A DNA stretch of 32,182 nt from a virus, in IMG/VR virus record IMGVR_UViG_3300029981_000040, positions 1 to 32,182 of that record; one strand, 5' to 3'. Under the pieces are notes generated by a model. It was not told the DNA's origin, ran no database searches, and worked only from the letters and a program-made list of their open reading frames with translations. Each line of letters starts with the position of its first letter. Position 1 is the first letter of the stretch. A program made the translations under genes and the position numbers. Positions 2,857 to 29,278 of the stretch are shown piece after piece.

Positions 2857-4740
2857 ATGCTGGTAGGCAGTGCATATGGGAAGGTAGGTCTAGATAGCAG
2901 CGGCGTCGTGACCGGGGTGCAGCAGGCGGTCAACGCGCTGAAGAACTTTAAGTCAACCATGGAACTGGCTGGTGGTGGGCTGAATAAACTTAAATCAGGT
3001 TTGGATTCGGCCAAGTCGGCTGTGGCTGCGGCCCGCGCGGAACTTGACAAATTAAAAGCCGGAAAGGCAGGGAAGGAAGAGATTGAAGCAGCGGCAGCCA
3101 GTTTGAAAAAGCTGGAAGCAAATGCCAATACTGCCGCCACCGCTGTTCGGAATGCAGAAACCCAAATACAACAGCTACGCCAGGCAGGCATGGCGCTGGG
3201 GCAGGGAATGCAGAACGTAGGTAACATGCTTACTGTTGGCGTGACCTTACCATTACTTGCAGCAGGTGGTGCAGCAATTAAATTGGCTAGTGATTTAAAC
3301 GAATCTAAAAGTTTGACAGGGGTCATCTTCAGCGATATGTCAAAGGATATTTTGAAGTGGGCTGAAGATGCTAATACCAAATTGCAAATGACTCGCAAGG
3401 AAGCCCTGGATTCGGCTAATGATTTTGCCATATTTGGTAAGGCTGCAAAATTAGCGGGCAATGATTTGGTTAAATTTGCTGAAGAAAACACACAGCTTGC
3501 AGCCGATTTGGCGTCAGCCAAGAACACATCGTCCGATGAAGCGATTACCGCTATTGGAGCTGCATATCGTGGAGAAATGGAGCCGATCAGAAAATATGGC
3601 GTTCTACTCGATCAGCAAATTGTAAAAGATAAAGCCGTTTCGATGGGGTTGATGAAAACGAATGATGAGCTAACAACGCAAAATAAAATCTTGGCAGTTA
3701 ATGCGCTCGTGTTGGAACAAACTTCGTATGCCCAGGGAGATATTGCGCGTACTGGTGGAGAAGTAGCCGGACAAATGAAAGAGGCTAATAAATCTATTCA
3801 GGATCTATTGGCTGATTTTGGAACTAACTTACTGCCTATGGCCAGGAATGCTTTAGTTGTGTTTAATCAGCTTCTACGATTTTTAAATAACCTATCGCCA
3901 TCGACGCAACAAAATATTATTGTCTTTTTAGGTTTAGCCGCAGCATTAGGCCCAGTACTTTCAACCATGGGCGGGTTGCTGATGTTCGTGTTACAGATAA
4001 CTGCGATTTGGCCGCAAGTGGTTACAGGTGCAGCTCTTATTGCGCCAACATTCGCAACCATCGGAACGGTCATCACTGGCACTGTCATTCCCGCAATTGT
4101 GGGCTTTATTGGTGCGGCTCTGCCCATCATTGCCGTGGTTGCTCTGGTCGCGGCGGCGATAGGGTTATTGTATTGGGCCTTCTCTACAAATTTCATGGGC
4201 ATCACTGATACGGTCAAGATGCTGGGGGTGATCATTCCGTTTTATATTAATCAAATGTGGAACTCGGTCGTGCTGTATTTTGCGAATGCGTGGAAAACAT
4301 TAACCGATATTTCCAGGAAAATCGCCACAAGTATAGCGGACGCATTCAAGATCGATTGGGGCCAAATTGGAGCGAATATCATTTCAGGGATTGTAAATGG
4401 GATCATTAATGGGATCGGGGCTTTGATCGAGGCAGCTAAACGCGCTGCAAATGCGGTGATGGATGCATTCAAGCAAACATTACAAATAGCATCGCCATCA
4501 AAGAAGTTCGATTGGTTTGGAAAAATGAGTGGAGTTGGTTATATCAATGGTTTGAACAGTGCAGTTCAACCGGCGATGGTGGCCAGCGCCGCATCCAGGC
4601 CAGTGCAGCAAATGGCCAGGGCAACCAGCTATCAGACACTCAACTTCGCGGATGGTCTGAGCATCCACGAAGCCAGGCGTATGCAGGTCGAAAGTGAACG
4701 CAGAATGCAGGTCTGGACACGAAAACTATTAGGAGCATGA
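2857..4740 (+). CDS. Tape measure protein
   Basis: A 627-aa protein, the first long gene after the chaperone pair, with AAGGAG at 2845-2850. Residues about 36-110 form an Ala/Lys/Glu-rich coiled coil. Residues about 353-442 hold several hydrophobic segments, consistent with the membrane-inserting part of tape measures. Near residue 545 is the ASPSKKFDWFG motif followed by Gly-rich sequence, a common C-terminal landmark of the family. The protein sets tail length; its modest size suggests a short tail of roughly 90-100 nm by the usual 0.15 nm per residue rule. It is followed by the tail tip genes. Confidence 0.9.
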   Translation: MLVGSAYGKVGLDSSGVVTGVQQAVNALKNFKSTMELAGGGLNKLKSGLDSAKSAVAAARAELDKLKAGKAGKEEIEAAAASLKKLEANANTAATAVRNAETQIQQLRQAGMALGQGMQNVGNMLTVGVTLPLLAAGGAAIKLASDLNESKSLTGVIFSDMSKDILKWAEDANTKLQMTRKEALDSANDFAIFGKAAKLAGNDLVKFAEENTQLAADLASAKNTSSDEAITAIGAAYRGEMEPIRKYGVLLDQQIVKDKAVSMGLMKTNDELTTQNKILAVNALVLEQTSYAQGDIARTGGEVAGQMKEANKSIQDLLADFGTNLLPMARNALVVFNQLLRFLNNLSPSTQQNIIVFLGLAAALGPVLSTMGGLLMFVLQITAIWPQVVTGAALIAPTFATIGTVITGTVIPAIVGFIGAALPIIAVVALVAAAIGLLYWAFSTNFMGITDTVKMLGVIIPFYINQMWNSVVLYFANAWKTLTDISRKIATSIADAFKIDWGQIGANIISGIVNGIINGIGALIEAAKRAANAVMDAFKQTLQIASPSKKFDWFGKMSGVGYINGLNSAVQPAMVASAASRPVQQMARATSYQTLNFADGLSIHEARRMQVESERRMQVWTRKLLGA

Positions 4741-5119: not shown

Positions 5120-7908
5120 CGCGCGCCTTGACTTCTCCAGAACTTATCAAACTGCGAGGCGATCAGCAATGGAACCGGTATTACCTGGCCATTCAACCAA
5201 GAACGGTTGTATTTGCAGCGAGGATCAACCAAACATTTTCGTCAAATGACAAGGTCAAGGCAATAAAATACGACACTGCCACTGGCGACTATACTGCGGT
5301 AAAGCCGGATATGACCGTCTACATTGGATCTACGCCAGGCGCCTATGATATTGGCATATGCCGTGTTCGCAAGGCAGCCACATCCAATAAGCTTTTTATC
5401 GGCCTGATCTCCGATATTAAATTGGCTGATAACCTGCATATAACCGTTCTGAACCATTATGGTTGGCATCCGAAGCATCCAACCATGCGCACGGATGGAT
5501 CTGCCCTGATGGATTGTGATGTGGTCTACAGTGCTCAGCATTCGGCAACGGTGCCAACTGTCAATCTGGGCGCGCCTACTGTGGCCTGGTTGACCGGGTC
5601 AAGTATTACTGTTAGTTTTAATGCATCCGGATCATGGAACCTGTCAGGCGGGACGCTTGCCTTTGCCTGGTCGTTCCCTGGCGCCGTATCATCTACCGGC
5701 GCCGCAACAGCTACGCCAACCGCAACGTACAACGCAGCGGGGACATACCAGGCGGCCTGCGCGATTACTGTGGCCGGTGTCAGCAAGACGCGGTATACCG
5801 ATGTTTATGTGTTTTCGAAAACAAGTATGCCTGTCACGCAGTTCGAAATCACAGCGTTAAATGGGCAATTTTCTGACAAAGGATGGGGATGTGACTTAAC
5901 ATTTTACGCTGAAGCCGGGCTCAGCAGCTTGCCAGATCAAGCTGAGATCGTCATATTTTCGCGCGATTTTTATCAGGGCGTGGAAGGCAGTATTGGACCG
6001 ATTTCGGGGCGTGAAAATATCGTTTTTCGTGGTTGGGTTGATGATGAGAGCCTGGTCAGCGATCCAAAAAGTGGAAAGGTATCAATTAGCGCATACGGAC
6101 CACAGCATTGGTTGGATAAGATCGACGCCATTCCGTTCGATTTGAAATATGGCACAAACGATTGGACGCATTTCAGTAATCTGACCGTTGATGCTGCAAT
6201 CTGGCAAGTTTTGACCTGGCGCAGCACAACCAACAATTTGATTGATATTTACCCAACGGGCGACACTCGTGCAGCTCCGCACCTGGAAGGTTCAGAAGGT
6301 ACTGTTTGGGCCCAACTAAAAAGCATCCTTGACCGAATTATGGCAGAGCCTATCTGTGATCATTTCGGAAATTTATATAACCAGATTGACAGCCAATATC
6401 TTGCTGACGCGGACCGCACATCAATCCCGGAAGTGATTACTCTGGAAAAGACTGACTGGCGCGATGGATTGGATATTCAGCGTTTGCCAACATCGGAATC
6501 ATCGCAGGTTATTTTGACGGGCCTGGTAACTTCCGGTGCTTCGACAAAAACAATTTATTCTTTGGCAGCAGGACACATCTATAAAAATTTTGGTGCACCA
6601 TTTTCTAAAGATGGTCTATTAGCATCATCGCAATCTCAGCAAAACGCGTTGGCCGGGTTGATATTAGGACATGAGAACAGAGCCTATGAGTTCACAATCC
6701 CCGGGGCTGCAATCAATCGTATGATCGATATCGCACCCAGGCAATATATTTTGTTGAACATTGCTGCGGGCGATACACCGCGCGGAGTAGCATATGCAGG
6801 CCGGGCCATTGTGCGGTCCGTTTCATGGGATGTGGTCAATGGAACGTTGTTGCCAACATATGATGCTGAGATGGAAACCTTCGCTGAGATTGGTATTAAT
6901 GGGGATATTCCGATTCTAGATGATCCGGATAATCCGGATGATCCCAATAATTCGATTAATGTACCAATGCCATCTTATCCCCCAATACATAATATTGAGA
7001 CTCCTGAACCACCCGAACCAGAACCTGGGTTGCCGGATCCCGCTAACTGCAATGATACGGGCCCGGCTACTACAGTCAATATGGCATGGGATAAGGCCTT
7101 TTTGCGTGGTGATGGCGATCGTATTGCTCATACCTGGAACCCTTGCACGATTAGATCATCAACAGCCGATAATCCGACCACGATGCAATTTACTATTAAC
7201 AATAGAGGACAAGCATACAATCATTTACACTGTTATGGAATCGACGGAAGTTATGCGCGTTTAGTGTCTGGCATCGTAACCGTTTCAGAGAGCTCGGGCG
7301 ATACCTATACCATGAACGTGGCGTTTTCACCATCAACAGCCACAACCGTGGCAGGGTTTGAACTGGAGTTGGACGAAGGTCTGGATGCTACCCCTGCGCC
7401 TCTATATTGTGAAATTGAAGGTACAGATTATAGGTTGGATGGACCTTTTGAAGGTGGTCAAACAGCCAACGTTACGTTATTTCGCCCTATATATGACCCC
7501 ACGCATGGTCATATCCAGTTTGCGTTCACTGGAACGGGGGCCAATAATAACGGCATACTCAACTATAATTTCCAGCTATCAGCTCATTTATCTACCGAAG
7601 ACGGTTATGAAGAATTCGGTGACTTATATGCGTATGTAATTTGGAGTGGTATTTCAAGCGCCGGTCCTATCGCTATAGAGAGCGCTGGTCTCGGAAGAAA
7701 ATACACATCGTACGTAGGCCATTACAAAGTCAGCGAAGGTTTTTTGGCACCAATAGTCAGCTACTATATAATCAGTGGGGATTATTTCAGTCCGGGAAAC
7801 TTCACTGTAGGTGGTTTTATTGACTTGTATTACTCAGCTACTATTCCCCAGCGTTCTGCAGCTTTGGGACCAACTAATTTAAATAATGTTTGTCCGGCGG
7901 GGGCGTAG
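5116..7908 (+). CDS. Large tail tip / hub protein with PKD-like domain
   Basis: A 930-aa protein. ATG 5116 overlaps the upstream stop and was preferred to the start at 5068, which lies inside the previous gene. Residues about 138-232 look like a PKD/Ig-like beta-sandwich (ITVSFNASGSWNLSGGTLAF, then AWSFPG and YNAAGTYQAACAITVAG). The following 350 residues are the likely hub region shared with baseplate hub or tail-endopeptidase proteins. A Pro/Asp/Asn-rich linker (about 599-644; DDPDNPDDPNN, PEPPEPEPG) leads to a beta-rich C-terminal domain. It probably forms the tail tip that contacts the cell surface. No catalytic protease or lysozyme motif was recognised. Confidence 0.7.
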   Translation: MTRALTSPELIKLRGDQQWNRYYLAIQPRTVVFAARINQTFSSNDKVKAIKYDTATGDYTAVKPDMTVYIGSTPGAYDIGICRVRKAATSNKLFIGLISDIKLADNLHITVLNHYGWHPKHPTMRTDGSALMDCDVVYSAQHSATVPTVNLGAPTVAWLTGSSITVSFNASGSWNLSGGTLAFAWSFPGAVSSTGAATATPTATYNAAGTYQAACAITVAGVSKTRYTDVYVFSKTSMPVTQFEITALNGQFSDKGWGCDLTFYAEAGLSSLPDQAEIVIFSRDFYQGVEGSIGPISGRENIVFRGWVDDESLVSDPKSGKVSISAYGPQHWLDKIDAIPFDLKYGTNDWTHFSNLTVDAAIWQVLTWRSTTNNLIDIYPTGDTRAAPHLEGSEGTVWAQLKSILDRIMAEPICDHFGNLYNQIDSQYLADADRTSIPEVITLEKTDWRDGLDIQRLPTSESSQVILTGLVTSGASTKTIYSLAAGHIYKNFGAPFSKDGLLASSQSQQNALAGLILGHENRAYEFTIPGAAINRMIDIAPRQYILLNIAAGDTPRGVAYAGRAIVRSVSWDVVNGTLLPTYDAEMETFAEIGINGDIPILDDPDNPDDPNNSINVPMPSYPPIHNIETPEPPEPEPGLPDPANCNDTGPATTVNMAWDKAFLRGDGDRIAHTWNPCTIRSSTADNPTTMQFTINNRGQAYNHLHCYGIDGSYARLVSGIVTVSESSGDTYTMNVAFSPSTATTVAGFELELDEGLDATPAPLYCEIEGTDYRLDGPFEGGQTANVTLFRPIYDPTHGHIQFAFTGTGANNNGILNYNFQLSAHLSTEDGYEEFGDLYAYVIWSGISSAGPIAIESAGLGRKYTSYVGHYKVSEGFLAPIVSYYIISGDYFSPGNFTVGGFIDLYYSATIPQRSAALGPTNLNNVCPAGA

Positions 7909-9999: not shown

Positions 10000-10040
10000 A
10001 AGAAGAAAGCCCTTATCGACGTGATGAGGGCTTTCTTCTT
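10000..10040. terminator. Bidirectional intrinsic terminator between tail fibre and integrase
   Basis: A perfect 14-bp stem: AAGAAGAAAGCCCT at 10000-10013 pairs with AGGGCTTTCTTCTT at 10027-10040, with a 13-nt loop. It lies between convergent genes and has T-rich sequence on the plus strand and T-rich sequence read leftward. The right arm lies inside the last codons of the integrase gene, so the integrase C-terminus and the terminator share bases. Confidence 0.85.
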
Positions 10041-11686
10041 ATCTGTATTTGAATGGCTACGGTATGCGTAAAGCTAGGAGCCACCAAAGGCCCGTGGTGC
10101 GTAGGCATACCTTTCAATTTCATGCCCCCTGGGGCGTCTGGTGGGTTCTCAGGGGGCGTGGCTTCATCTTCTGTGTCCATATAGATGACCATTTCACCTG
10201 TAAGCTGGTCATCGTGACGATCCATGCGGATTTCTGACACCAGGCCCTGGAGAATGACACGCCTGGCGTGTGGATCAGCCGTGGTAATCAAATCAGCCAT
10301 GTGAAGCGCGTAGGCCTGAAGCTGCTCATCTGATAGATTTTGTAGGGGTGTTTCCTGGGCGGTCTTGATTTCGATCAGGGCCGTTTTTAGTTCGGTTTGT
10401 TCAGCTTCGAGCGCTTCCAGTCGGTCAAGCAGCGGGCGTGAATGGCCACGGTCAGCGATGGCGGCGGTGATATTGTTCATCTTATTGCGCACAGCCGTCA
10501 GGTCGCTTTGCAGGCCGATGCGCTTTTGTTCGAGCTCTTCGAGGCGTTGGGTTTGGCGCCGCTGCAGGGCCCGGTAACTTTGGGTATAGTAGTCCGGATC
10601 ACGCAGGATCTCGGATAATTTATTAATGATGCCCTGTTCAAGCGAGTAGGCCGGAAGATGGGGCAGGTCACAATCACGGCGCCGGGATCCGCGTGTGCAG
10701 CGGTAGGATTGGATGTCGCCGTTTTTCTTTTTGGTGGTGTGCGCCCATAACGGCGACCCGCACCGGCCACAGCGGATCAGGCCGGAAAGCAGATGCTTGG
10801 ACCCTACCCGCCGGGGATGGTCTGCAACAGATTTTAGCTGAGCGCGCTGAGTGTAGCGGGCCGATATTATTTGACAATTCGTCCATGTAGCCAGATCGAT
10901 CATGGGTTTGCAATAATTTTCAATCGTCAAGGTGCCATAAACCAGGGTGCCGATATAAATTTTGTTGGCCCAGAAGGTTTGGTAGGATGTAAGTGAAGTG
11001 AACAAGCGCGTTTCGGCATTTATATCTGCCAGGGACGATCCTGACACGCGCATTTTGAAGGCGGTCTGGATGCGGACGATCATCGCCGGATCCGGCACCC
11101 AGCGCGCGGCAGTCCGGACAGATCCATCACGCCGTAAGCCGATTTCCATGGGTTGGCGCATAAAACCTGCCGGGGGGTTGCCCGGCACGCAGCCAAACAC
11201 CGTTACGAGGTCCTGCAGGCCGCGGCGGGCATCCCGGCTGACCTGACGTTTCTTCTCTTGGTTTGCGATGTCAATGATAATCTCGACGATCTGGCCATAG
11301 GGACCTTCGGGGATCGGGTCGGTCATTGAGTGAATTACGAATCCGCGCTTGCGCAAAACGGATTTGTAAAACTGGGAATCATCCAGGTCGCGCGCGAAAC
11401 GGGCATAATTCCAGATCAGCAGGCCATCCGGAAGAGACGACTCATGTTTGCTGCTCAGGTCGATCATTTCGTTAAAATGCTCACGGCCAACGACCGTGCC
11501 GCCTGAGCGCGCTTCATCGGCGAAAATAAGCGTCAGGTTGAGGCCATAACGCTCACAGAAGGCCAGGACTTCGGCTTTTTGCTGCGCGACGGATCGATCC
11601 TGCATGGGACCACCAGAATCGCGCAAATAGGTCCACAGTGTGGATCCTGATGGCAAAGTTGTAGGGGGAGGAAGATAGTCAGACAT
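10013..11686 (-). CDS. Large serine recombinase (phage integrase)
   Basis: A 557-aa protein in the normal size range for large serine integrases. The N-terminal resolvase domain (about 17-160) includes YLRDSGG with likely nucleophile Ser24, and the Arg-rich YARFARDLDD segment. A recombinase domain follows (about 165-290). Next is a zinc ribbon with Cys306, Cys309, Cys330 and Cys339 (LIRCGRCG, YRCTRG, RDCD), then a coiled coil (about 375-445) of the kind that controls directionality. It would integrate the phage between attP and attB with a separate directionality factor; none was recognised. It follows the gene at 11718-11912 by 31 bp and is probably co-transcribed with it. The ribosome site is weak. 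Confidence 0.93.
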   Translation of the reverse strand: MSDYLPPPTTLPSGSTLWTYLRDSGGPMQDRSVAQQKAEVLAFCERYGLNLTLIFADEARSGGTVVGREHFNEMIDLSSKHESSLPDGLLIWNYARFARDLDDSQFYKSVLRKRGFVIHSMTDPIPEGPYGQIVEIIIDIANQEKKRQVSRDARRGLQDLVTVFGCVPGNPPAGFMRQPMEIGLRRDGSVRTAARWVPDPAMIVRIQTAFKMRVSGSSLADINAETRLFTSLTSYQTFWANKIYIGTLVYGTLTIENYCKPMIDLATWTNCQIISARYTQRAQLKSVADHPRRVGSKHLLSGLIRCGRCGSPLWAHTTKKKNGDIQSYRCTRGSRRRDCDLPHLPAYSLEQGIINKLSEILRDPDYYTQSYRALQRRQTQRLEELEQKRIGLQSDLTAVRNKMNNITAAIADRGHSRPLLDRLEALEAEQTELKTALIEIKTAQETPLQNLSDEQLQAYALHMADLITTADPHARRVILQGLVSEIRMDRHDDQLTGEMVIYMDTEDEATPPENPPDAPGGMKLKGMPTHHGPLVAPSFTHTVAIQIQIRRKPSSRR

Positions 11687-13568: not shown

Positions 13569-13937
13569 TTATTTAAGCGCTGGCTTGGTTTGCGATGGGC
13601 TTGAAGCATCGCGTTCTTGTTCGTCAAGAAGTGAATTCAATAAGCTTTCAGCTAACTTACGACGAATGCCAGTTAATTGACTTATTTTATGTTCCATCTC
13701 ATCTACCCAGGGGTCATCAGACGTTGGCAGAAGCAATCCGGCTGCACGGAAAACTGTTGATCGGTCAAGATTAAGCGCACGAGATATGGCTATTAATGAA
13801 TCCTGACCAATTCCAGAAGTTCCATTAATAAGATTACTAACAGTTCCTTTGCTTATGCCTGCACGGCGAGCAAGTTCTGATTGAGACATTTTGCGATCAC
13901 GCAAAGTGTTCAATAGCCAATCTCCAAAGTTTTCCAT
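13569..13937 (-). CDS. XRE-family repressor (probable lysogeny repressor)
   Basis: A 122-aa DNA-binding protein. Residues about 1-60 hold a classic helix-turn-helix (MSQSELARRAGISKGTVSNL, then LINGTSG), and residues 60-120 a helical, probably dimerising tail. ATG 13937 is chosen because the HTH fold begins directly after it; ATG 13946 and a TTG at 13958 are alternatives and no start has a strong ribosome site. The protein is too short to contain a LexA-type self-cleavage domain, so induction would need another signal. It points away from the duplicated promoter at 13993-14060, making that repeat its likely operator. Confidence 0.85.
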   Translation of the reverse strand: MENFGDWLLNTLRDRKMSQSELARRAGISKGTVSNLINGTSGIGQDSLIAISRALNLDRSTVFRAAGLLLPTSDDPWVDEMEHKISQLTGIRRKLAESLLNSLLDEQERDASSPSQTKPALK

Positions 13938-13992
13938 ATTGAACATTCTCACACACAAGGCGTTCAGTCTCCGATACTTATTGTTTAATGTA

Positions 13993-14020
13993 TTGACAAA
14001 TAGTTATAAATAGTTATAAT
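13993..14020 (+). promoter_or_regulatory. Early promoter copy 1
   Basis: TTGACA (13993-13998), a 16-bp spacer and TATAAT (14015-14020): both hexamers match the sigma70/SigA consensus. The AATAGTTATA repeats cover the spacer and the -10 box, so a repressor bound there would block RNA polymerase. Confidence 0.85.
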
Positions 14021-14032
14021 GTGTTTAATGTA

Positions 14033-14060
14033 TTGACAAATAGTTATAAATAGTTATAAT
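14033..14060 (+). promoter_or_regulatory. Early promoter copy 2 (proximal)
   Basis: An identical copy 40 bp downstream: TTGACA 14033-14038, TATAAT 14055-14060. Transcription should start near 14067, giving a leader of about 32 nt before ATG 14099, with AGAAGGAG at 14085-14092. Confidence 0.85.
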
Positions 14061-14098: not shown

Positions 14099-14323
14099 AT
14101 GGCACGAAGAATCAAAATCAAGATCCAAACCGAAAAGAAGTACGAGTGCCCGAAGTGCCACAACCTGGTCAGCGCGGCTGGTGTGGCTGCTGGCCGCGGT
14201 CATGACTGCCTGCGTTGCTGTGGCGCGCGGTACGAGCATTTCAGGCCGGTAACTTCAATTGTCCGCACGACCCTGGTGGATGGGTATTACCAGGATGTCA
14301 AGTTTTCAGTGGCTGCACGGTAA
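14099..14323 (+). CDS. Small zinc-ribbon protein, first early gene
   Basis: A 74-aa basic protein with a strong AGAAGGAG site. A likely zinc ribbon is formed by CPKC (residues 17-20) and CLRCC (37-41). As the first gene behind the early promoter it may regulate transcription or bind nucleic acid, but no family was recognised. The following gene has its own AAGGAG site overlapping the stop codon here. Confidence 0.75.
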   Translation: MARRIKIKIQTEKKYECPKCHNLVSAAGVAAGRGHDCLRCCGARYEHFRPVTSIVRTTLVDGYYQDVKFSVAAR

Positions 14324-17046: not shown

Positions 17047-17304
17047 ATGCGACAAGATACCTACCCTAGCGGCGCCGCATCCTTGTTTGCGACCCACGCG
17101 CGTTCCACCACACCCAGACTCTCTGCCGCTGGCCAGCGTGTGCTTAAGAAGATCAGCAAACATTGCGAAGACATCACCTGGCTGATCGCCGGGATCGATG
17201 AAAAGGATTGGAGCAAGATTTCCGAGTTCTTGATGAATGAAAACACAGTGACCTGGCAGGAAGTCAGCCGGTTCATGGAAGTCATCACCCGGGAGGCGAA
17301 ATGA
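17047..17304 (+). CDS. Small protein upstream of the tyrosine recombinase
   Basis: An 85-aa protein with GGAG before its ATG. It overlaps the recombinase gene by 4 bp (ATGA at 17301), so the two are translationally coupled. The C-terminal 60 residues are helical (VLKKISKHCEDITWLIAGI, WQEVSRFMEVITREAK). A coupled small gene before a recombinase can be an accessory factor, but no sequence motif supports that here. Confidence 0.7.
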   Translation: MRQDTYPSGAASLFATHARSTTPRLSAAGQRVLKKISKHCEDITWLIAGIDEKDWSKISEFLMNENTVTWQEVSRFMEVITREAK

Positions 17305-18218
17305 GCACGCATTGGATCATTGAATTTACCGACTGGCTCGAACGGGAAGGCAGATCCAAGTTGACCATCGATGCATACCGCAGTGATGTGGAAATCTATG
17401 CTAACTGGTTCGTGCAGGTTGCGGATCAGGATTTCGAACCCGCCCTGCTCACTGGCCGGGATCTGCGCGCCTGGCGTGAAGCATCGATCCACGCTGAGGG
17501 CGTGGAAGGATCGACCTGGAACCGGCGCCGCGCTTCACTGCGGGTTTTCTGTACCTGGGCGTTGCGCGCTGGCCACGTGGCTGCCGATCCATTCGAAGGC
17601 ATTCGCCCGGCGGATGTGCGCGAGGCTCCGATCTTGTGGTTGGATGACAACGAATTCAACAAGGTCCTGCGCACACTTGAGCACCAAATCAACGCGGCAG
17701 CCACTGAGGCTTGGCGGGTGCAGGCAATTCGAAATCGGGCCATGGTGGCATTGATGGTTTTTGCCGGTCTGCGGGAAAGCGAAGTAGTGAATTTGCGCGT
17801 CTCTGCTCTACTGATGAGTGAGCGTAAGGGCGCCGTAAAAATTCGCGATGGAAAAGGCGGAACGTTTGCGGAGATCCCGCTCAATCATGAGGCTGTTACC
17901 GATCTGCAAGCCTGGCTTGCGGTACGTGGCGCCGCAGATGGCCTGCTCTTTGTGGGCAAGGGCAGCCAGCAGCTCACTGGCCGCCAGATTCAGCGCCTGG
18001 TGAAATCACTGGGGCAAAGCTGTGGAATTGCAAATTTGACACCCCATCGATTTCGGCACACGTTCTGTAAGCGCACCCTGGACGGGAAATATCGCCGAGA
18101 CGGTCAATCTGTCCCGCTGACGGTTGTCCAGCGTTTAGCCCGCCATGCCCGTATTTCAACAACAGCCCGCTATGCCAAACCCGGTCAACGGGACCTTGAG
18201 CTGGCGGTAGGAGCGTAG
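17301..18218 (+). CDS. Tyrosine recombinase (XerC/D-like)
   Basis: A 305-aa protein with a complete catalytic set. Residues 1-100 form the SAM-like core-binding domain. The catalytic domain has Arg158 (GLRESEV), Lys185 (RDGKGG), His249 and Arg252 (TPHRFRHTF), His282 (RHARI) and nucleophile Tyr291 (TARYAKP). The length matches XerC/D rather than large phage integrases that carry an arm-binding domain. It is an early-operon gene, so a role in resolving multimers of replicating phage DNA is as likely as integration. It is followed 2 bp later by a P-loop ATPase gene. Confidence 0.93.
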   Translation: MSTHWIIEFTDWLEREGRSKLTIDAYRSDVEIYANWFVQVADQDFEPALLTGRDLRAWREASIHAEGVEGSTWNRRRASLRVFCTWALRAGHVAADPFEGIRPADVREAPILWLDDNEFNKVLRTLEHQINAAATEAWRVQAIRNRAMVALMVFAGLRESEVVNLRVSALLMSERKGAVKIRDGKGGTFAEIPLNHEAVTDLQAWLAVRGAADGLLFVGKGSQQLTGRQIQRLVKSLGQSCGIANLTPHRFRHTFCKRTLDGKYRRDGQSVPLTVVQRLARHARISTTARYAKPGQRDLELAVGA

Positions 18219-22077: not shown

Positions 22078-22382
22078 CAGTAGTAGAAAAGTTCCCAAAC
22101 TTCACCATTACACTGCGCAATGGGCCATGGGCGCGAGCGCTCCACAAAAAGGAACAGGCGGTACATAAGTAATCATTATGCGACATAAGACAGGCAGATC
22201 AGGGCATTTGAGTAGTTTATCAGGGTGTTAGAGCACATATCTTATGTCGCATAAGTGGAACGGTAGGGGGGGAGGGGTCGGCGGCGAAATTTCCGCCGAT
22301 TCCAAACCCGGCCAGAGGCGGCAGTGCTCGAATACTCAGAAAAAATCCAGAAAAACGGGTGAAAAACCTATGGAGAGCAACG
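22078..22382 (+). other. Non-coding gap with origin-like features
   Basis: About 300 bp without a convincing gene, directly upstream of the primase. It holds a perfect 15-bp inverted repeat (22176-22190 and 22240-22254), a third CATAAG half-site near 22164, a G-rich tract (22263-22277) and a hairpin with arms TCGGCGG/CCGCCGA (22278-22299). The combination suits a replication origin or an operator region; neither is shown directly. Confidence 0.55.
22176..22254. repeat. Inverted repeat pair TTATGCGACATAAGA
   Basis: TTATGCGACATAAGA at 22176-22190 and its exact reverse complement at 22240-22254, 49 bp apart. Each arm is itself nearly palindromic (CTTATG - 3 bp - CATAAG), so each is a plausible binding site for a dimeric protein. 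Confidence 0.85.
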
Positions 22383-23552
22383 ATGTGGAACAATTTTGAA
22401 GATGCAGTCGATGACATCAAGCGCGCCAATCCGATCGAAGATGTGGTCAAGGATCTCGGGCATAAGTTCGAGCGCGATTCTGGAAAATATCGCCGGGTAC
22501 CACACACGGGTGGCCTGGTGATCAATACCGCGAAGCAAAACTTTTTTTGGGCGGAGAAAGGCTGGAACGGCGACGTTGTCACCCTGGTTGAAAAAGAAAA
22601 AGGCTGGGAATTCCGCTCAGCGGTTGAATGGCTGGCGGACCGGGCCGGGTTGGATCGCCCGGGCTGGGGCAAGATGGATGACCAGGCGGTCAAGGCCCAC
22701 CGGCTGAAGCTTTCCATCTTCGAAATTTCACAACAGTTGTTTGTGAAATGGTTATGGGAAGATGAGGTCGCGCTCGACTATCTACGCAAGCGTGGCTTCA
22801 GCGATGAGGTCATCCGTATAAGCGGCATGGGCTTCAGCGGTCGAAAGACTGACGCGCAATATAACGAGATGCGCGGACAGTTGGGAATGTATGAAATTGA
22901 TCCGGCTTCGCCTGCTGCTGTTGGTGTGTTGGGCTACCGCGGCGACGTGGCTGCCTGGTCAAAAAAGTACAACGTGGATGTCAGCGAGCACGACTGGGTA
23001 CAGTGGGGCCAGGTATCGGGCCTTATGGGCCGTCCAGGGATCATCTATGCCCACCAATGGGCAGGCAGGACGATCTATTTCACCAGGCGCAACCTGCCCG
23101 GCTACGACACCTTCGAGGATGCAGAAGGCAAAACCAAGGAAATCAAATCTTACAACGTGCCCAAATGTCTTGCCGGAGTGCGCCAACCCTACTTTAACCA
23201 TGTTTATCGGGCGGATGCCGAAGATTGTGTCATTGTCGAAGGTCCTGCAGATGCTGAAACCTTTGGGGTCTGGGGCCTGGCCGCTGTGGCTCTTTGTGGT
23301 GTGCATGCGGAGGATGAAGGAATTCAAAGCCTAAAAGCCAGGCTCAAGAGTCACAAGAAAAAATACCTGCTGCTCGATGACGATCCCACCGGCCGCGCCA
23401 AACGCGAACGCGTGGCACAGGCGATTGGGCCATTGGTGCGGCTGGTGGATTGGTCAGATATGGAACCGGGTGAGGGGCAAATCATTGCCGAGGTCGAAGA
23501 GGTGGAAGACCTGGCCGAAACACAGAAAGACGGAGAGAACACCGATGAGTGA
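22383..23552 (+). CDS. DnaG-like primase with degenerate zinc domain and Toprim
   Basis: A 389-aa protein. ATG 22383 follows GGAGAG (22372-22377); an upstream GTG at 22359 has no site. Residues 15-92 follow the CHC2 primase zinc-domain pattern (ANPIEDVVKDLG, NGDVVTLVEKEKGWEFRSAV, WLADRAGL), but the Cys/His ligands are replaced (VPHT and WAEKG stand where CPFH and CFGC are expected). A Toprim domain follows with Glu286 (VIVEGPAD) and Asp332-Asp334 (LLLDDDPTG). It would make RNA primers or process DNA at the nearby origin-like gap. It overlaps the helicase-type gene by 8 bp. Confidence 0.85.
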   Translation: MWNNFEDAVDDIKRANPIEDVVKDLGHKFERDSGKYRRVPHTGGLVINTAKQNFFWAEKGWNGDVVTLVEKEKGWEFRSAVEWLADRAGLDRPGWGKMDDQAVKAHRLKLSIFEISQQLFVKWLWEDEVALDYLRKRGFSDEVIRISGMGFSGRKTDAQYNEMRGQLGMYEIDPASPAAVGVLGYRGDVAAWSKKYNVDVSEHDWVQWGQVSGLMGRPGIIYAHQWAGRTIYFTRRNLPGYDTFEDAEGKTKEIKSYNVPKCLAGVRQPYFNHVYRADAEDCVIVEGPADAETFGVWGLAAVALCGVHAEDEGIQSLKARLKSHKKKYLLLDDDPTGRAKRERVAQAIGPLVRLVDWSDMEPGEGQIIAEVEEVEDLAETQKDGENTDE

Positions 23553-25365
23553 ACCAGGGAAAGTTGACGCAAATCTGCTGCTCCAGGCATGGCAGACAGG
23601 CGGCATACCGGAAGATGACCAAAAGATCCGCATCCGGGCGCTGCTTGGATTATCCAAGCCCCTGATCATTGCAGTATCCGAACAGGTCGGCCAGATGCCC
23701 GATGAGGACAAGCGCCTCGGCATTTATCGCCTGGTTGACCTGCTGCGCGAGCTGGATGAGAAAGACCGGGAATTCTACCTGCGGCGGGTCGCCAAAAAAG
23801 CCGGTTCAACCGTCGCCGATCTGCGCGGCCTGCTAAAGAGTGGTGAGAAAAAAGGCACCAAGACCGAATCGGATGTTGAGCCAGACCGGATCACAGGCGG
23901 ATGGGTGCAGGGTCATCTGCTCGAATTGGTTTTTGACCCGATCAAGGTGGCCACCTGGTTCGCTGTGCGTTACCCGGATGGCCGCGTAGATCCGCACGTG
24001 GAAAAGATCACCATCGAAGGCAGAACCCTGGCGCCTATCTGGCCGAACTCTATTCTGATCAAAAATGGCGTGCGCATGCCCACCGAAATCTATGAGAAAC
24101 CGCTGCCCGAAAAGGAGCTGCTGGCCATCACAAAAGGGCATATTTACAAGTATTTTGATTTCGGCAGCAATGATTTTTTCGAAGAATTATCACCGCAGTA
24201 TGTAGGCTTCACTTATTTTGCTGATGCTTTTATGGAAACATCTTATATGCGCGCCCTGGGCGACTATGGAACGGGCAAGACCCGCTTTTTGAAGGCGATT
24301 GGCCTGATCTGCTACCGGCCGATCTATGTCACCGGCGGGTCAAGCGCTGCCAGTCTGTATCACTTCCTGGATTTCTACAAAGGCACATTGATCCTGAATG
24401 AAGCGGACTTCGGCCAGAGCGATGAAGCCAGCATCATTGCCAAAATCCTGAACGGCGGCACTGAACGGGATGAAGGCATTTCTAAGATGAAAAAAACGGC
24501 AGACGGGAACATGGAAATTGAGATGTACAACGTGTTCGGCCCCAAGGTGATCGCGACCCGGAAGGGGTTCGATGATAAGGCCATAGAATCGCGCTGCCTG
24601 ACAATGGAAATGGTACCCATGGCGCCGCATCCGCGCATCCCACGGCACCTGCCTCCCAATTATGGCGAAATTACAGCCGAAATCCGCAATCTATGGACTA
24701 CTTACCGCCTGTTCAATGCACAGGAATCGATTCACATCGATGAAACCCAGACAGATTACACCCTGGAAGCGCGGCTCAGCCAGGTCAGCGGACCGCTCAT
24801 GAGCATCATCAGCGATCCGGATGTAAAAGAACAGATGAAGATGTTCATGCGTGAATATAACGAAAGGTCCCAAACTGAGCGCTACGCCACAAAAACCGCC
24901 CGCATTGTGGAAGGCATTCTCAAGGCCTGGGCCTGGGGTCCGGTCTCTGCCAACGTGAACGACGAAAACCGGCTGTATCTTAAGGATATTGCTTTCGCAA
25001 CCAACATAGTCACCGATGATATGAACCACCGCATGGGCGATGACGATGAAGAAGAACGCGTCGATCAGAAGACCGGCCGCAAGACCGGCGGGAAAATGAC
25101 CAGCCGTGGCGTTTCGGGCATCATGGATAAATTTCTGCAACTGCGCACCTGGCGCGCGACAGATGGCATCGATGAATATAAAGGCACGATGTATATCGAC
25201 ATGAATCGGGATCTCGAACGCGTGAAAGCGCTGACCGAACGCTGGGGCGTGAAATGGCTGGAGCGTGGATCTGAAAAACGACCGATAAAGATCAATTTAA
25301 ATGACCCCGAGACTTCCAAGCGTCTGGTACAGCACGATTTACCAACCTATTACACAACCAAATAG
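23545..25365 (+). CDS. Replicative helicase-type P-loop ATPase
   Basis: A 606-aa protein translationally coupled to the primase (8-bp overlap, GGAGAG before ATG 23545). The N-terminal 130 residues are helical and charged. The ATPase core has Walker A GDYGTGKTR (about 239-247) and a Walker B-like strand TLILNEADFG (about 281-290) in which Asn replaces the usual Asp before Glu. An Arg-rich segment, IESRCLTMEMVP, follows. The layout is that of helicase-type ATPases (DUF927/DUF3631-like) found with primases on phages and plasmids. The C-terminal part is charged and probably winged-helix. Confidence 0.75.
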   Translation: MSEPGKVDANLLLQAWQTGGIPEDDQKIRIRALLGLSKPLIIAVSEQVGQMPDEDKRLGIYRLVDLLRELDEKDREFYLRRVAKKAGSTVADLRGLLKSGEKKGTKTESDVEPDRITGGWVQGHLLELVFDPIKVATWFAVRYPDGRVDPHVEKITIEGRTLAPIWPNSILIKNGVRMPTEIYEKPLPEKELLAITKGHIYKYFDFGSNDFFEELSPQYVGFTYFADAFMETSYMRALGDYGTGKTRFLKAIGLICYRPIYVTGGSSAASLYHFLDFYKGTLILNEADFGQSDEASIIAKILNGGTERDEGISKMKKTADGNMEIEMYNVFGPKVIATRKGFDDKAIESRCLTMEMVPMAPHPRIPRHLPPNYGEITAEIRNLWTTYRLFNAQESIHIDETQTDYTLEARLSQVSGPLMSIISDPDVKEQMKMFMREYNERSQTERYATKTARIVEGILKAWAWGPVSANVNDENRLYLKDIAFATNIVTDDMNHRMGDDDEEERVDQKTGRKTGGKMTSRGVSGIMDKFLQLRTWRATDGIDEYKGTMYIDMNRDLERVKALTERWGVKWLERGSEKRPIKINLNDPETSKRLVQHDLPTYYTTK

Positions 25366-25706: not shown

Positions 25707-26159
25707 ATGAAAACTCAAACAGATATGGCACTGTTCGGATTGTTATTAGCGGTCATGGCCGTTTTTGCTTTCGGGATATGGAGCGCCGGGCAAGTGGATG
25801 TCGCTGCGGCTCAGGTGAATGCGCAAGCTGCCGCCGGGCAGCTTCCTATGGCTGAAGTGATCGGCGGCCAGGTTAGCGGTTGGGCGCTTAAAACTATCAT
25901 CGGAATTGTGGCAGTTGCCATTGCCACTGCCGGTGTAGCCTGGGTACGGCAATGGTGGAAGCGGCGCAATGGAAAACGCGCCTGGCGCAGCGGACCAAAT
26001 GCGCAGTGGCAGGGCCAGGAGCGCGGTCCGCGCCAGGTGAATGATGCTGATCTGATGCGCATGATGATGATGCAGCAGATGATGGCAGCAAATAACAACG
26101 GAAAACGGACAAGCAGCACCAGCGCGCCGGTGGATGATGATCTGAATATTGATTTCTAG
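25707..26159 (+). CDS. Two-TM membrane protein of the transfer-like block
   Basis: A 150-aa protein with GGAG at 25699-25702. TM1 (MALFGLLLAVMAVFAFGIW) and TM2 (ALKTIIGIVAVAIATAGVAWV) flank an Ala/Gln-rich external loop. The C-terminal 70 residues are basic, then Met/Gln/Asn-rich (LMRMMMMQQMMAANNN). It is the first gene of a run that leads to the FtsK-type translocase, so it may be a membrane anchor or pore component. No family is recognised. Confidence 0.75.
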   Translation: MKTQTDMALFGLLLAVMAVFAFGIWSAGQVDVAAAQVNAQAAAGQLPMAEVIGGQVSGWALKTIIGIVAVAIATAGVAWVRQWWKRRNGKRAWRSGPNAQWQGQERGPRQVNDADLMRMMMMQQMMAANNNGKRTSSTSAPVDDDLNIDF

Positions 26160-26168
26160 GAGCGAGCT

Positions 26169-27233
26169 ATGAAAAAACAGTTAGTCGGTTTATTGCTCTT
26201 CTGGATGATGACGTTGATGTCATGCAATATGCCAGATGCGAACACGGCAGCCACTCGCAAAACTGCGACGGCTACACCTGAGATTAAGTCGGTTGCAGCT
26301 GGATATTTAGAGCAGAAAATGTTCGATGACATGACGCAGACACAAAACCAGCGGACGGAAGTTGCATTAGGTGCCATCCTGACATTGACTCAACAGGTGC
26401 TGAATGCAACGGCCACAATGGAAGCACATCGAGAAAACTTGCAGGGTACGGCCCGTGCTGACGGGGCAACCCAGCAGGTATGGAAGGTGACTGTGGCGGC
26501 TCAAGTGGCAGCTGATACTGCTACAGCTGAGGCGCATGTTGCGGAAACCCAACAGGCCTATGTGATGGCGACTGGTACAGCACAGAGGATGGCAGTTGAG
26601 TCTACCCGCACGGCAGAAGCCCAGGATACGGAGACACAGCAGGCAGTATTGGGTCTGACTGCCACGATCGCAGCGCGTGAAACGGCTACCGCAGATTACA
26701 AGACCGAGCAGGCCCCATTTGTCCAGGCGCAACAGACGGCGGTCAAGGCGCAGGCTGAAAGTGCAGAACTGGCAGCCAGCCGTGAACGGATGACAAATGG
26801 CGTGATCGCCTGGGGGCCCTGGTTGATTGCCGTGGTGGCCGTGGCAGCCTTTATCTTTGTGACGATTCGCAAAAGCCAGGTGGGGACCATTGATCGCGAT
26901 GAAAACGGCATGATGCCTGGTGTGGTGATATTTAATCATGGTAGAAAGCAGTTTATCGTCCCTGACCGGATGTTCTCACCGGTCCTGACGATGGATCGTA
27001 ATGGCATTTCAGCGCCACAAATGGCGACGCCGGAGCTGCAGGAAGGCACTACGCGGCGCGCGCAAGCCGTTGAAGCGATCAATGCCTTACCACAACAGGC
27101 TCAAAAACAGGGATTTGGCTTAATGGCGCAGACATTTAACACCACTTCGCGACCCGCCATCGAAGTCATGGAACCTGGGCAGGTGCGTGGATGGGTCGAT
27201 GAAGCCGAGACAAAGCTCGGCGAGGAGCTCTAA
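26169..27233 (+). CDS. Lipoprotein with long helical domain and C-terminal TM segment
   Basis: A 354-aa protein. The signal peptide ends in the lipobox LMSC with Cys19. Residues about 30-205 are a long Ala/Thr/Gln-rich helix, with repeats such as TATMEA and TATAEAH, of a kind frequent in Anaerolineae. A TM segment lies near 213-235 (WGPWLIAVVAVAAFIFVTI), followed by a cytosolic domain of about 115 residues. The protein therefore has an outer lipid anchor and an inner domain and could bridge the envelope. It ends on the start codon of the translocase (TAATG), which suggests direct partnership. Confidence 0.8.
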   Translation: MKKQLVGLLLFWMMTLMSCNMPDANTAATRKTATATPEIKSVAAGYLEQKMFDDMTQTQNQRTEVALGAILTLTQQVLNATATMEAHRENLQGTARADGATQQVWKVTVAAQVAADTATAEAHVAETQQAYVMATGTAQRMAVESTRTAEAQDTETQQAVLGLTATIAARETATADYKTEQAPFVQAQQTAVKAQAESAELAASRERMTNGVIAWGPWLIAVVAVAAFIFVTIRKSQVGTIDRDENGMMPGVVIFNHGRKQFIVPDRMFSPVLTMDRNGISAPQMATPELQEGTTRRAQAVEAINALPQQAQKQGFGLMAQTFNTTSRPAIEVMEPGQVRGWVDEAETKLGEEL

Positions 27234-28579
27234 TGTTAGCAATTCAGAATAATTACATGGAAAAGGCGCAGCGAGTTGTGCGGATCGTTGAAGCTGTACT
27301 TGGCAGTCGCACCGGAACGGATCCGGCATTGATTGAACGCTGGGTAATGACACGCACAGATCAGGGCGCGGTCTGGTTGTTTGCTGTCCTGGATGACAGG
27401 CGGCTGCCAAAGTTTGAACCATATGAGGCCGCGGCGCATCATTTATCGTCGAGTTTGCGCGGCATGCCGGTCTTCCTGGGCAATCATACCGGGCTGCGCT
27501 ATGGAATTCTGTTGTCGCAGAAACCCCAGTTGCCCAAGTTGGTCGAATTCCATGGATGGAGACGCGGCGTGATGCAGTTAGGTGTGGATATGCGCGGCCA
27601 GGCAGTTGAAATTGGCTATGGCGAAATCAATCACACACTGGTGGCTGGCATTACCCAGTTTGGTAAGTCTAATTTTCTCAGGCTCATGGCTCTCCAGGCG
27701 CGCGATGAAGGCTGGCAGCTTGCGCTGGCTGACCCGGATGGGCGGACGTTTACGAAATTTGAGCAGGATCCTGCGCTGATCTGCCCTGTGGGCAAGACCC
27801 TGGAAAGCTGCCTGCATGTGATTGGCCGGGTACAAGAGTTGATTAACGAACGCGCAAAGCTGTACGACCAGGCGGGGAATTCTCCGGACGGACTAGATGA
27901 ATACAACGAGTGGGCGCAAGAGAGCAGCATAGAACCCCTGCAGCCAGTCCTGGTCGTTCTGGATGAGTTCAACGGCACGGTGCTTGGCACAGGTGGCGTA
28001 CGTGGTTCGTTTGCCAATGCCGCGACACAGGTGGCCTGGCGCGCGGCGAAATTCGGGATCCGGCTGATACTGGCCGGGCAGGATTTCAGCAAGGACATCG
28101 TTGGACCGGTTCGCGAGCAAATGACAACCCGGATCTGCCTGCGTGTGGCAAACGAGCGTATTTCTGATGTAGTGTTGGGCAAGACCGGCGCCGAACGTCT
28201 GGTGCTGCCTGGCCGGGCTATGACTAATCGATGGGAAACCATCCAGACCTATTTTGTGCCCAAGGCGCTGTTGGTGCGTACTGACTCTAATGGTCTAACG
28301 GATACCGAAAAGCGGATCGCCGAATTTGTTTGGGCGAATTACCGGGGACGTATGACCATGCCTGCTCTGCAGCAGTATGGTCTCGGCGAACGTGCTGCCC
28401 GGCGGGTGCGGGCCGATTGGCAGCAGCGCGGCCTGGCTGAAGTGCGGCCCGATCAGGACAATGCGCTCTGTTTGACCATAAAAATGGATGTCCAGACCGG
28501 TCTGGACGGTCTGGACGCGGTCGTGACGGGTCTGGGCGCCCAGGCCGGTCTGGACGGTAATGGGGTGGTGGAGGCCTAA
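27233..28579 (+). CDS. HerA/FtsK-type DNA translocase ATPase
   Basis: A 448-aa protein without TM segments. Walker A is G139-ITQFGKS146, preceded by VAG in the FtsK/HerA style; Walker B is VLVVLDEF with Asp244 and Glu245. A sensor-like ILAGQDF follows near residue 280. The C-terminal 60 residues before the tail look like a winged helix (MPALQQYGLGERAARRVRADWQ), as in FtsK gamma or TraB, which read DNA motifs. The tail itself is Gly/Leu/Asp-rich, encoded by repeated GGTCTGGAC. It lies in one operon with a lipoprotein and membrane proteins, so it probably moves DNA across the envelope. Confidence 0.85.
   Translation: MLAIQNNYMEKAQRVVRIVEAVLGSRTGTDPALIERWVMTRTDQGAVWLFAVLDDRRLPKFEPYEAAAHHLSSSLRGMPVFLGNHTGLRYGILLSQKPQLPKLVEFHGWRRGVMQLGVDMRGQAVEIGYGEINHTLVAGITQFGKSNFLRLMALQARDEGWQLALADPDGRTFTKFEQDPALICPVGKTLESCLHVIGRVQELINERAKLYDQAGNSPDGLDEYNEWAQESSIEPLQPVLVVLDEFNGTVLGTGGVRGSFANAATQVAWRAAKFGIRLILAGQDFSKDIVGPVREQMTTRICLRVANERISDVVLGKTGAERLVLPGRAMTNRWETIQTYFVPKALLVRTDSNGLTDTEKRIAEFVWANYRGRMTMPALQQYGLGERAARRVRADWQQRGLAEVRPDQDNALCLTIKMDVQTGLDGLDAVVTGLGAQAGLDGNGVVEA
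28490..28555 (+). repeat. GGTCTGGAC repeats at the 3' end of the translocase gene
   Basis: GGTCTGGAC occurs at 28499-28507, 28508-28516 and 28547-28555, with GGTCTGGGC at 28529-28537. The reverse complement, GTCCAGACC, is at 28490-28498 and forms an 18-bp perfect palindrome with the first copy (28490-28507). All copies lie inside the coding region. Confidence 0.85.
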
Positions 28580-29278
28580 ATGGCGAAAAATCGGAGTTTG
28601 CAAATCAGCAGTGTGCTGCTTTACATGGCAGCCTTATACCAGGCAACGCAATATATGCGCGCGGGGGCTTTGATGGATGGCGGCGCAGGTGTTTTGGACT
28701 TTGGTGTCTTGCGCGTTCCATTGGGTCAGATCGGTGGTCTTTTCGCAGGGCTGACCATCAACCTAAGCCTGGCTTACGTGGCCACCAGGCTGCCAAGCAT
28801 CACTGGCAAGAACAGGGAGAAGTATGCAAGATTTGGCTTCTACGGATTGCTGATCATGTCGCCATTGTTGATTGGACCAGTGAACTATGTGCTGATGGAT
28901 GCGCGTGTACTGGCAGGATTTAATATCTTGCGCATGCTGCTCTCGATCTTGTGGGCGTCAGCGATGGATGTCTCAATTGCGCTTGTAGGCATCGTTGACA
29001 AGTCGCTGATTTCGCTGGGTGTCGCTGAAGCGAAACCAGCGACGCTGAAACCTGCTGAAACGAGCGGAAAGCGACGCTCAAAGACGCTGGAAGCGCCGCT
29101 AAGCGTGCCTGTCAGCGTGGTAGCAGCGAAACCAGCGACATTATGGCGATGCGAGTGTGGCTTTGAGACGCTGAATAGAAACCAGTACAGCGGTCACGCT
29201 GGGAAGTGTCCTATCCATAAACAGGCGCACACTGGCAAGCTAATCCCCGTTGAATTGGCCGCAAAGGAGCAAAAATGA
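28580..29278 (+). CDS. Four-TM protein with C-terminal Cys/His zinc motif
   Basis: A 232-aa protein starting directly after the translocase stop. Four hydrophobic segments lie within the first 145 residues (VLLYMAALYQATQYM, IGGLFAGLTINLSLAYV, GFYGLLIMSPLLIGPVNYV, LRMLLSILWASAMDVSIAL). A Lys/Pro/Thr linker contains a repeated AKPATL, encoded by a 14-bp DNA repeat at 29030 and 29126. The last 40 residues carry CECGF and HAGKCPIH, a likely zinc finger. It could form a membrane platform for the translocase and bind DNA by its tail. Confidence 0.75.
   Translation: MAKNRSLQISSVLLYMAALYQATQYMRAGALMDGGAGVLDFGVLRVPLGQIGGLFAGLTINLSLAYVATRLPSITGKNREKYARFGFYGLLIMSPLLIGPVNYVLMDARVLAGFNILRMLLSILWASAMDVSIALVGIVDKSLISLGVAEAKPATLKPAETSGKRRSKTLEAPLSVPVSVVAAKPATLWRCECGFETLNRNQYSGHAGKCPIHKQAHTGKLIPVELAAKEQK

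Follow-up and report, generated by a model that had tools for sequence, protein, structure and literature searches.

An FtsK-type gene module with a repeat array at its 3' end, found in tailed phages and virion-free integrative elements of Chloroflexota

Why would a tailed phage that encodes its own packaging motor also carry an FtsK-type DNA translocase, packed together with genes for a lipoprotein and membrane proteins? The question is raised by a gene block in the window, by which we mean the whole 32,182-nucleotide stretch analysed here, a single IMG/VR virus record (IMGVR_UViG_3300029981_000040). A first-pass annotation had placed this block of four closely packed genes within a tailed-phage genome, and the phage setting is well founded: the tail operon gives a tape measure match (PHROG, 2e-25), and contig L002, which is identical to the window phage, prolongs its right end into the small and large terminase genes. 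The window also encodes a repressor-like gene, a primase-helicase pair and two recombinases: a serine integrase, the large serine recombinase at 10013-11686, and an Xer-like tyrosine recombinase at 17301-18218 that is similar to those of the virion-free elements described below. The window phage is temperate and tailed, and it encodes a packaging motor of its own.

22359..23552, plus strand: DnaG-type primase, upstream of the module (PHROG DNA primase, 9.8e-16)
23545..25365, plus strand: replicative helicase-like P-loop protein, part of a primase fusion in relatives (26% identity to the C-terminal half of a 980-aa protein of L004)
25707..26159, plus strand: two-TM membrane protein, core gene 1 (TM 7-25 and 59-77)
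26169..27233, plus strand: lipoprotein (lipobox LMSC, Cys19; TM 215-233)
27233..28579, plus strand: FtsK-type dsDNA translocase ATPase with C-terminal winged helix (PF01580, predicted structure, clade)
28580..29278, plus strand: membrane protein with C2HC zinc cluster, optional gene 4 (homologue in L004)
L002 16686-18308: TerL, the window phage's own large terminase

Composition of the block

All four open reading frames were recovered, and the successive spacings along the block are, in order, an overlap of 4 nt, a gap of 9, an overlap of 1, a gap of 0 and an overlap of 4. The ATPase, of 448 residues, matches FtsK_SpoIIIE (PF01580) at 2.4e-9, above the cut-off, with intact Walker A (GITQFGKS) and Walker B (LVVLDE) motifs and no TM helix found along its length. 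Its AlphaFold2 model (pLDDT 80) comprises an FtsK motor followed by a winged-helix end at about residues 357-422, where pLDDT is about 90 across much of the domain, and the best PDB matches are the FtsK motor 6t8b and TcpA (6o1x). The lipoprotein is predicted to place a long helical region outside the cell, followed by the second membrane helix and a 121-residue cytoplasmic tail; its model is of low confidence (pLDDT 62) and supports no interpretation beyond this helical stretch and a small tail rich in beta structure. The two-TM protein has a 40% identical homologue in prophage G013C17. The TM helices, lipobox, Pfam match and model bear out the earlier description of these three products.

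The fourth product had been described as a four-TM zinc protein. Its cluster (CxC-x12-H-x3-C) is conserved in L004; a hydropathy cut-off recovers two strong TM helices only, so that four are plausible. When gene 4 was compared by hhalign with SpdB/DUF2637, kinship gained no support and no Spd homologue was found for the module; the same method gave none for kinship with the 4TM-coil proteins of L016, L171 and L129. Because L004 retains gene 4 at 74% identity in a genome with neither ftsK nor the lipoprotein gene, gene 4 is separable, and most relatives do without it. The proposed four-gene unit accordingly gives way to a core module of three genes encoding a two-TM protein, a lipoprotein with a second membrane helix and a soluble FtsK-type ATPase.

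Distribution among phages and integrative elements

Single-protein scans of viral contigs and the A1 scan of genome contigs returned few or no relatives. Host genomes were chosen via a 16S probe; ATPase matches extending past the motor domain occurred in 6 of 30 Anaerolineae-probe genomes, strong matches in 9 of the 396 Anaerolineae genomes searched, and profile matches in 6 of 400 genomes across the phylum Chloroflexota. An alignment scan of IMG/VR contributed 14 additional loci with a full-length or near full-length ATPase, among them L183, which represents the same phage as prophage G013C17 (L129). The order two-TM protein, lipoprotein, FtsK recurs in the majority of some 28 additional loci, which argues against chance, and almost every intact locus keeps it when ORFs masked by antisense calls are recovered. 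With few exceptions, relatives have a lipoprotein homologue immediately upstream of ftsK, and in most intact ones this lipoprotein gene is itself preceded by a two-TM gene.

In a tree of the motor domain (with the root placed for drawing only and some branches long), the ATPase falls in a separate clade, with support 99/94, whose members come from Chloroflexota genomes and viruses and which lies apart from the sampled host chromosomal FtsK proteins and from pIJ101-type TraB. Given this separate clade and its occurrence in both tailed phages and terminase-free integrated elements, the ATPase is neither packaging machinery nor a chromosomal FtsK. Grouping with packaging or chromosome-partition proteins, or absence of the block from all related elements, had been named at the outset as grounds for abandoning the transfer reading; instead the clade is distinct from the chromosomal FtsK proteins sampled, the window phage brings a terminase of its own, and many related elements carry the block. 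As had also been suggested, the block was looked for in Chloroflexota with and without phage genes, and both situations were found. The terminase large subunit was detected in 11 of the 14 contigs newly obtained from IMG/VR, a database itself selected for viruses, and prophage G013C17 carries a terminase beside the block plus portal, protease and tape measure genes; no terminase lies near the block in nine of ten host genomes checked, for two terminase families and within the limits of contig ends.

The virion-free elements combine an integrase, a primase/helicase and FtsK. One of them, a compact element of ~11 kb (G029C53) located between gatB and a glycosyltransferase-like gene, encodes in order an HTH protein, the two-TM protein, the lipoprotein, FtsK (with a stop), ParM, Replic_Relax, a tyrosine integrase, an AAA_25 helicase and a primase; integrase and FtsK likewise share one element in L125, L126, L127 and L141. 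Two blocks adjoin tRNA genes (one tRNA-Glu, one tRNA-Asp), and no att repeats were found at the flanking tRNA genes in the stretch examined. In G121C15 the integrated element adjoins a rightward cluster (L141 13786-19991) that opens with a gene similar to those for contractile tail sheaths, as in injection systems.

Phages related to the window phage through their primase-helicase and DUF5131 genes vary in what fills the slot after the helicase. In L004 it holds a two-TM protein with a tail that looks winged-helix-like by eye, together with gene 4; in L016, a lipoprotein with a wHTH-like tail and a 4TM protein; and in L019 and L020, a lipoprotein with such a tail, then ParM (Pfam), then a small RHH-like gene. 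The lipoproteins of L019, L020 and L016 are connected by tblastn, and FtsK was absent from the seven related viral records searched, some of which are fragments. In L019 (6272-8597) and L020 (3086-5810) the lipoproteins, with TM helix and wHTH-like tail, lie directly upstream of parM and the RHH-like gene, a set that is possibly a membrane-tethered partition module. Among carriers of the block itself, ParM (PF17989/PF21522) or ParA adjoins or lies near it at many loci, as ParA does in the cultured species Anaerolinea thermolimosa, which has the three-gene core; no Par gene was seen near the block in the window, L129 or L144.

Repeat array at the 3' end of ftsK

A feature that had escaped the first-pass annotation is a cluster of short repeats at the end of the ATPase gene, whose principal type, GGTCTGGAC, is expected by composition in 0.24 copies in the window.

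28490..28555: clt-like array at the ftsK 3' end, six 9-bp units (repeat search and family tests), namely GTCCAGACC at 28490; GGTCTGGAC at 28499 and 28508; GGTCTGGGC at 28529; GCCCAGGCC at 28538; GGTCTGGAC at 28547

An unprompted search for clustered 8-mers pointed to the ftsK 3' end in the window, L126 and L127, and reading this end in 16 loci revealed iterated repeats whose sequence differs by locus (GTCAAACC, CTCCAACC, GGGAAACC, TGACAAACC, CCTCAAGG, GACGAACC and GGTCTGGAC), with those of the window phage mostly oriented opposite to most relatives' units. The units are 8-9 bp long and phased near one helical turn: many arrays open with spacings of 8, 9 and 10, and a motif-free autocorrelation peaks at lags of 8-11, 17-21 and 28-30 nt (z up to 8), not at codon lags. 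Fixed-window copy number averages 5.7 at ftsK 3' ends versus 2.4 at 213 other ORF ends (p=1e-12), and the prediction held on the 14 later-found loci (5.2 versus 2.4 copies, p=7e-10), both p-values treating related loci as independent and the later set including L183, the duplicate of L129. In the first set the two weakest arrays belong to the two ftsK genes with an internal stop; in the later set, L174, L177 and L171 are weak by this count. Chromosomal ftsK genes of Chloroflexota score 2-4 copies. Since copies occupy several frames and pass the stop codon (46 lie after it), the signal resides in DNA, and a protein-level tail repeat is ruled out.

No 3' array of this kind was found in tra genes of the pIJ101 type, in five further members of the FtsK family or in one EccC gene. 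Such an array is not a general TraB hallmark; its absence from the pIJ101-type genes is consistent with the location of their clt at another site. Among the best plasmid matches is a 458-aa FtsK-domain protein of the linear enterococcal plasmid pELF_JHP80 (L168 2354-3730), which has no 3' array. The closest parallels are in Streptomyces plasmids: the clt of pWTY27 comprises 16 bp within traA and a further 159 bp on its downstream side, and TraA binds the 7-bp repeats that it contains, while TraB of pSVH1 recognises 8-bp repeats via its C-terminal wHTH (PMC3583192). By analogy with both, the array may be the loading site of the module FtsK on its own DNA.

A possible DNA pump and its alternatives

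The resemblance to TraB/TraA of Streptomyces plasmids and AICEs (pSVH1, pWTY27, pIJ101) extends to a single FtsK/SpoIIIE motor, a C-terminal winged helix and clustered repeats (7-9 bp) near a tra-like gene, which in pWTY27 likewise overlap the gene end, and to an AICE-like composition of Int, Rep and FtsK, with integrase and FtsK within one element. In contrast, the module has a motor clade of its own, different membrane partners, an ATPase without TM helices (TraA of pWTY27 has two; PMC3583192), no Spd homologue, Chloroflexota hosts and tailed phages among its carriers. AICE-type Rep proteins (RepSA, RepAM, Prim-Pol) were absent from the scanned proteins, which instead include an AAA_25 helicase and a DnaG-type primase; moreover, an AICE int is not located between rep and tra (PMC3218068), whereas in G029C53 and G121C15 it lies between ftsK and the helicase/primase genes. 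Because these defining features fail, the module is TraB-like in its working but is not a member of TraB or the AICEs.

Other systems share single traits. TcpA of pCW3 is a close fold match, but is a coupling protein working with a conjugation apparatus. TdtA of the Thermus element ICETh1, which mediates transjugation, is likewise an orphan, membrane-bound FtsK/HerA-superfamily pump of an integrative element at a tRNA gene and acts in the donor, but it is encoded with a NurA nuclease and depends on recipient competence, and the consulted part of its description mentions no lipoprotein partner or array (PMC5365140). The Bacillus plasmid-prophages Izhevsk and Novomoskovsk and Geobacillus phage PK5.2 are temperate phages with plasmid-type genes including FtsK and/or Replic_Relax; in PK5.2 FtsK adjoins a replication/relaxation gene, but falls outside the module clade, lacks the 3' array and has no lipoprotein gene annotated alongside. 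The literature searched, with most subscription journals outside its reach, held no description of this Chloroflexota module.

With fair confidence, and by analogy with pWTY27 and pSVH1, we regard the module as a membrane-held, element-specific dsDNA pump. Gene order, the motor and wHTH folds, the phased array and the presence with or without virion genes are observations; array binding, a membrane complex and DNA export we infer. In this view the ATPase would form a ring around double-stranded DNA, its winged helix would recognise the array in which its gene ends, restricting FtsK to loading on its own element, and the two-TM protein and lipoprotein would anchor it at the membrane and extend through the envelope. 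The pump would most likely drive the element's own DNA across membrane or septum into a neighbouring cell, like Streptomyces TraB. Several host lineages (Anaerolinea type) are filamentous, and there such transfer would need little besides a pump. Two observations speak for export to a neighbouring cell, namely the envelope-spanning lipoprotein and the resemblance of the virion-free elements to AICEs in composition; we hold export tentatively, at slightly under an even chance, since the motor lies outside pIJ101-type TraB, TM helices and an Spd homologue are missing, ParM/ParR or ParA is frequent, FtsK-less viral relatives keep the wHTH-tailed lipoprotein (L016, L019 and L020, two of them beside ParM), and phages already spread via virions.

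The same frequent partition genes and FtsK-less relatives make vertical maintenance a strong rival, in which the same array-loaded, membrane-anchored pump would position or clear episomal (plasmid-prophage) DNA at the septum, or aid dimer resolution with the element's tyrosine recombinase, alongside ParM/ParR or ParA. In the Bacillus phages, one of which combines Replic_Relax with ParM and Xer recombinases, FtsK and Replic_Relax have been interpreted as functions of a plasmid prophage (PMC7685451, PMC9658697). However, the window, L129 and L144 show no Par gene near the block, segregation does not require an envelope-spanning lipoprotein, and elements with ParM/ParR already own a segregation motor. 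FtsK/SpoIIIE guide sites, besides, are dispersed, not clustered like the array. We consider vertical maintenance a serious possibility, if one clearly below even. The array could alternatively be a centromere (parC) or an operator for a neighbouring RHH/ParR protein, as parC sites are iterated repeats and several elements have the array immediately upstream of parM; this is improbable, since no parM directly follows the array in the window, L129, L144, L139, L140, L180, L182 and L184, no array was seen upstream of parM in L019, L020, L138 and L140, and the weakest arrays accompany the interrupted ftsK genes. Least probable by far is protein secretion or superinfection exclusion by an EccC-like ATPase with membrane partners: EccC models are its best NCBIfam matches, but at 52.8 bits against a cut-off of 509, and the protein has a single ATPase domain, with a wHTH end and DNA array instead, and no EccB or WXG100-like gene was noticed nearby.

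Of the original proposal of TraB-like single-ATPase dsDNA transfer, the likeness persists, in that the module recurs, with a clt-like array, in virion-free Chloroflexota integrative elements; spread between cells as a second route beside virions is so far unsupported, and episomal segregation would account for most of these observations equally. Some of the Chloroflexota viruses sharing this pump may also pass DNA through membranes without particles, to a neighbour or a daughter cell. It seems unlikely, albeit worth stating, that a broad group of temperate tailed Chloroflexota phages uses two routes, spreading in virions and also passing dsDNA directly from one cell to an adjoining one via a TraB-like pump loaded at the helically phased array, exchanging the module with virion-free integrative elements; if true, this would be a testable case of a phage moving without a particle. 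AICE-type transfer is reported as confined to Actinomycetales (PMC3218068), and a Chloroflexota pump with its own loading site would, if real, extend single-ATPase dsDNA transfer to another phylum, as a convergent or distantly related pump common to phages and integrative elements. A binding assay could be aimed precisely at the array DNA.

Repeats of other kinds occur elsewhere. Four copies of an operator-like AATAGTTATAA-type repeat (13999-14058) sit between the window's Xre-type repressor gene (13569-13958, minus strand) and a rightward gene at 14099; L020 has two copies of the 17-bp AACCGYCAAAAACTATT immediately upstream of parM (4460-4510), possibly a parC-like site; and in L129 clusters of up to seven GGGTGCATTT-type repeats, unrelated to the ftsK array, lie near 6980-7060 and 12010.
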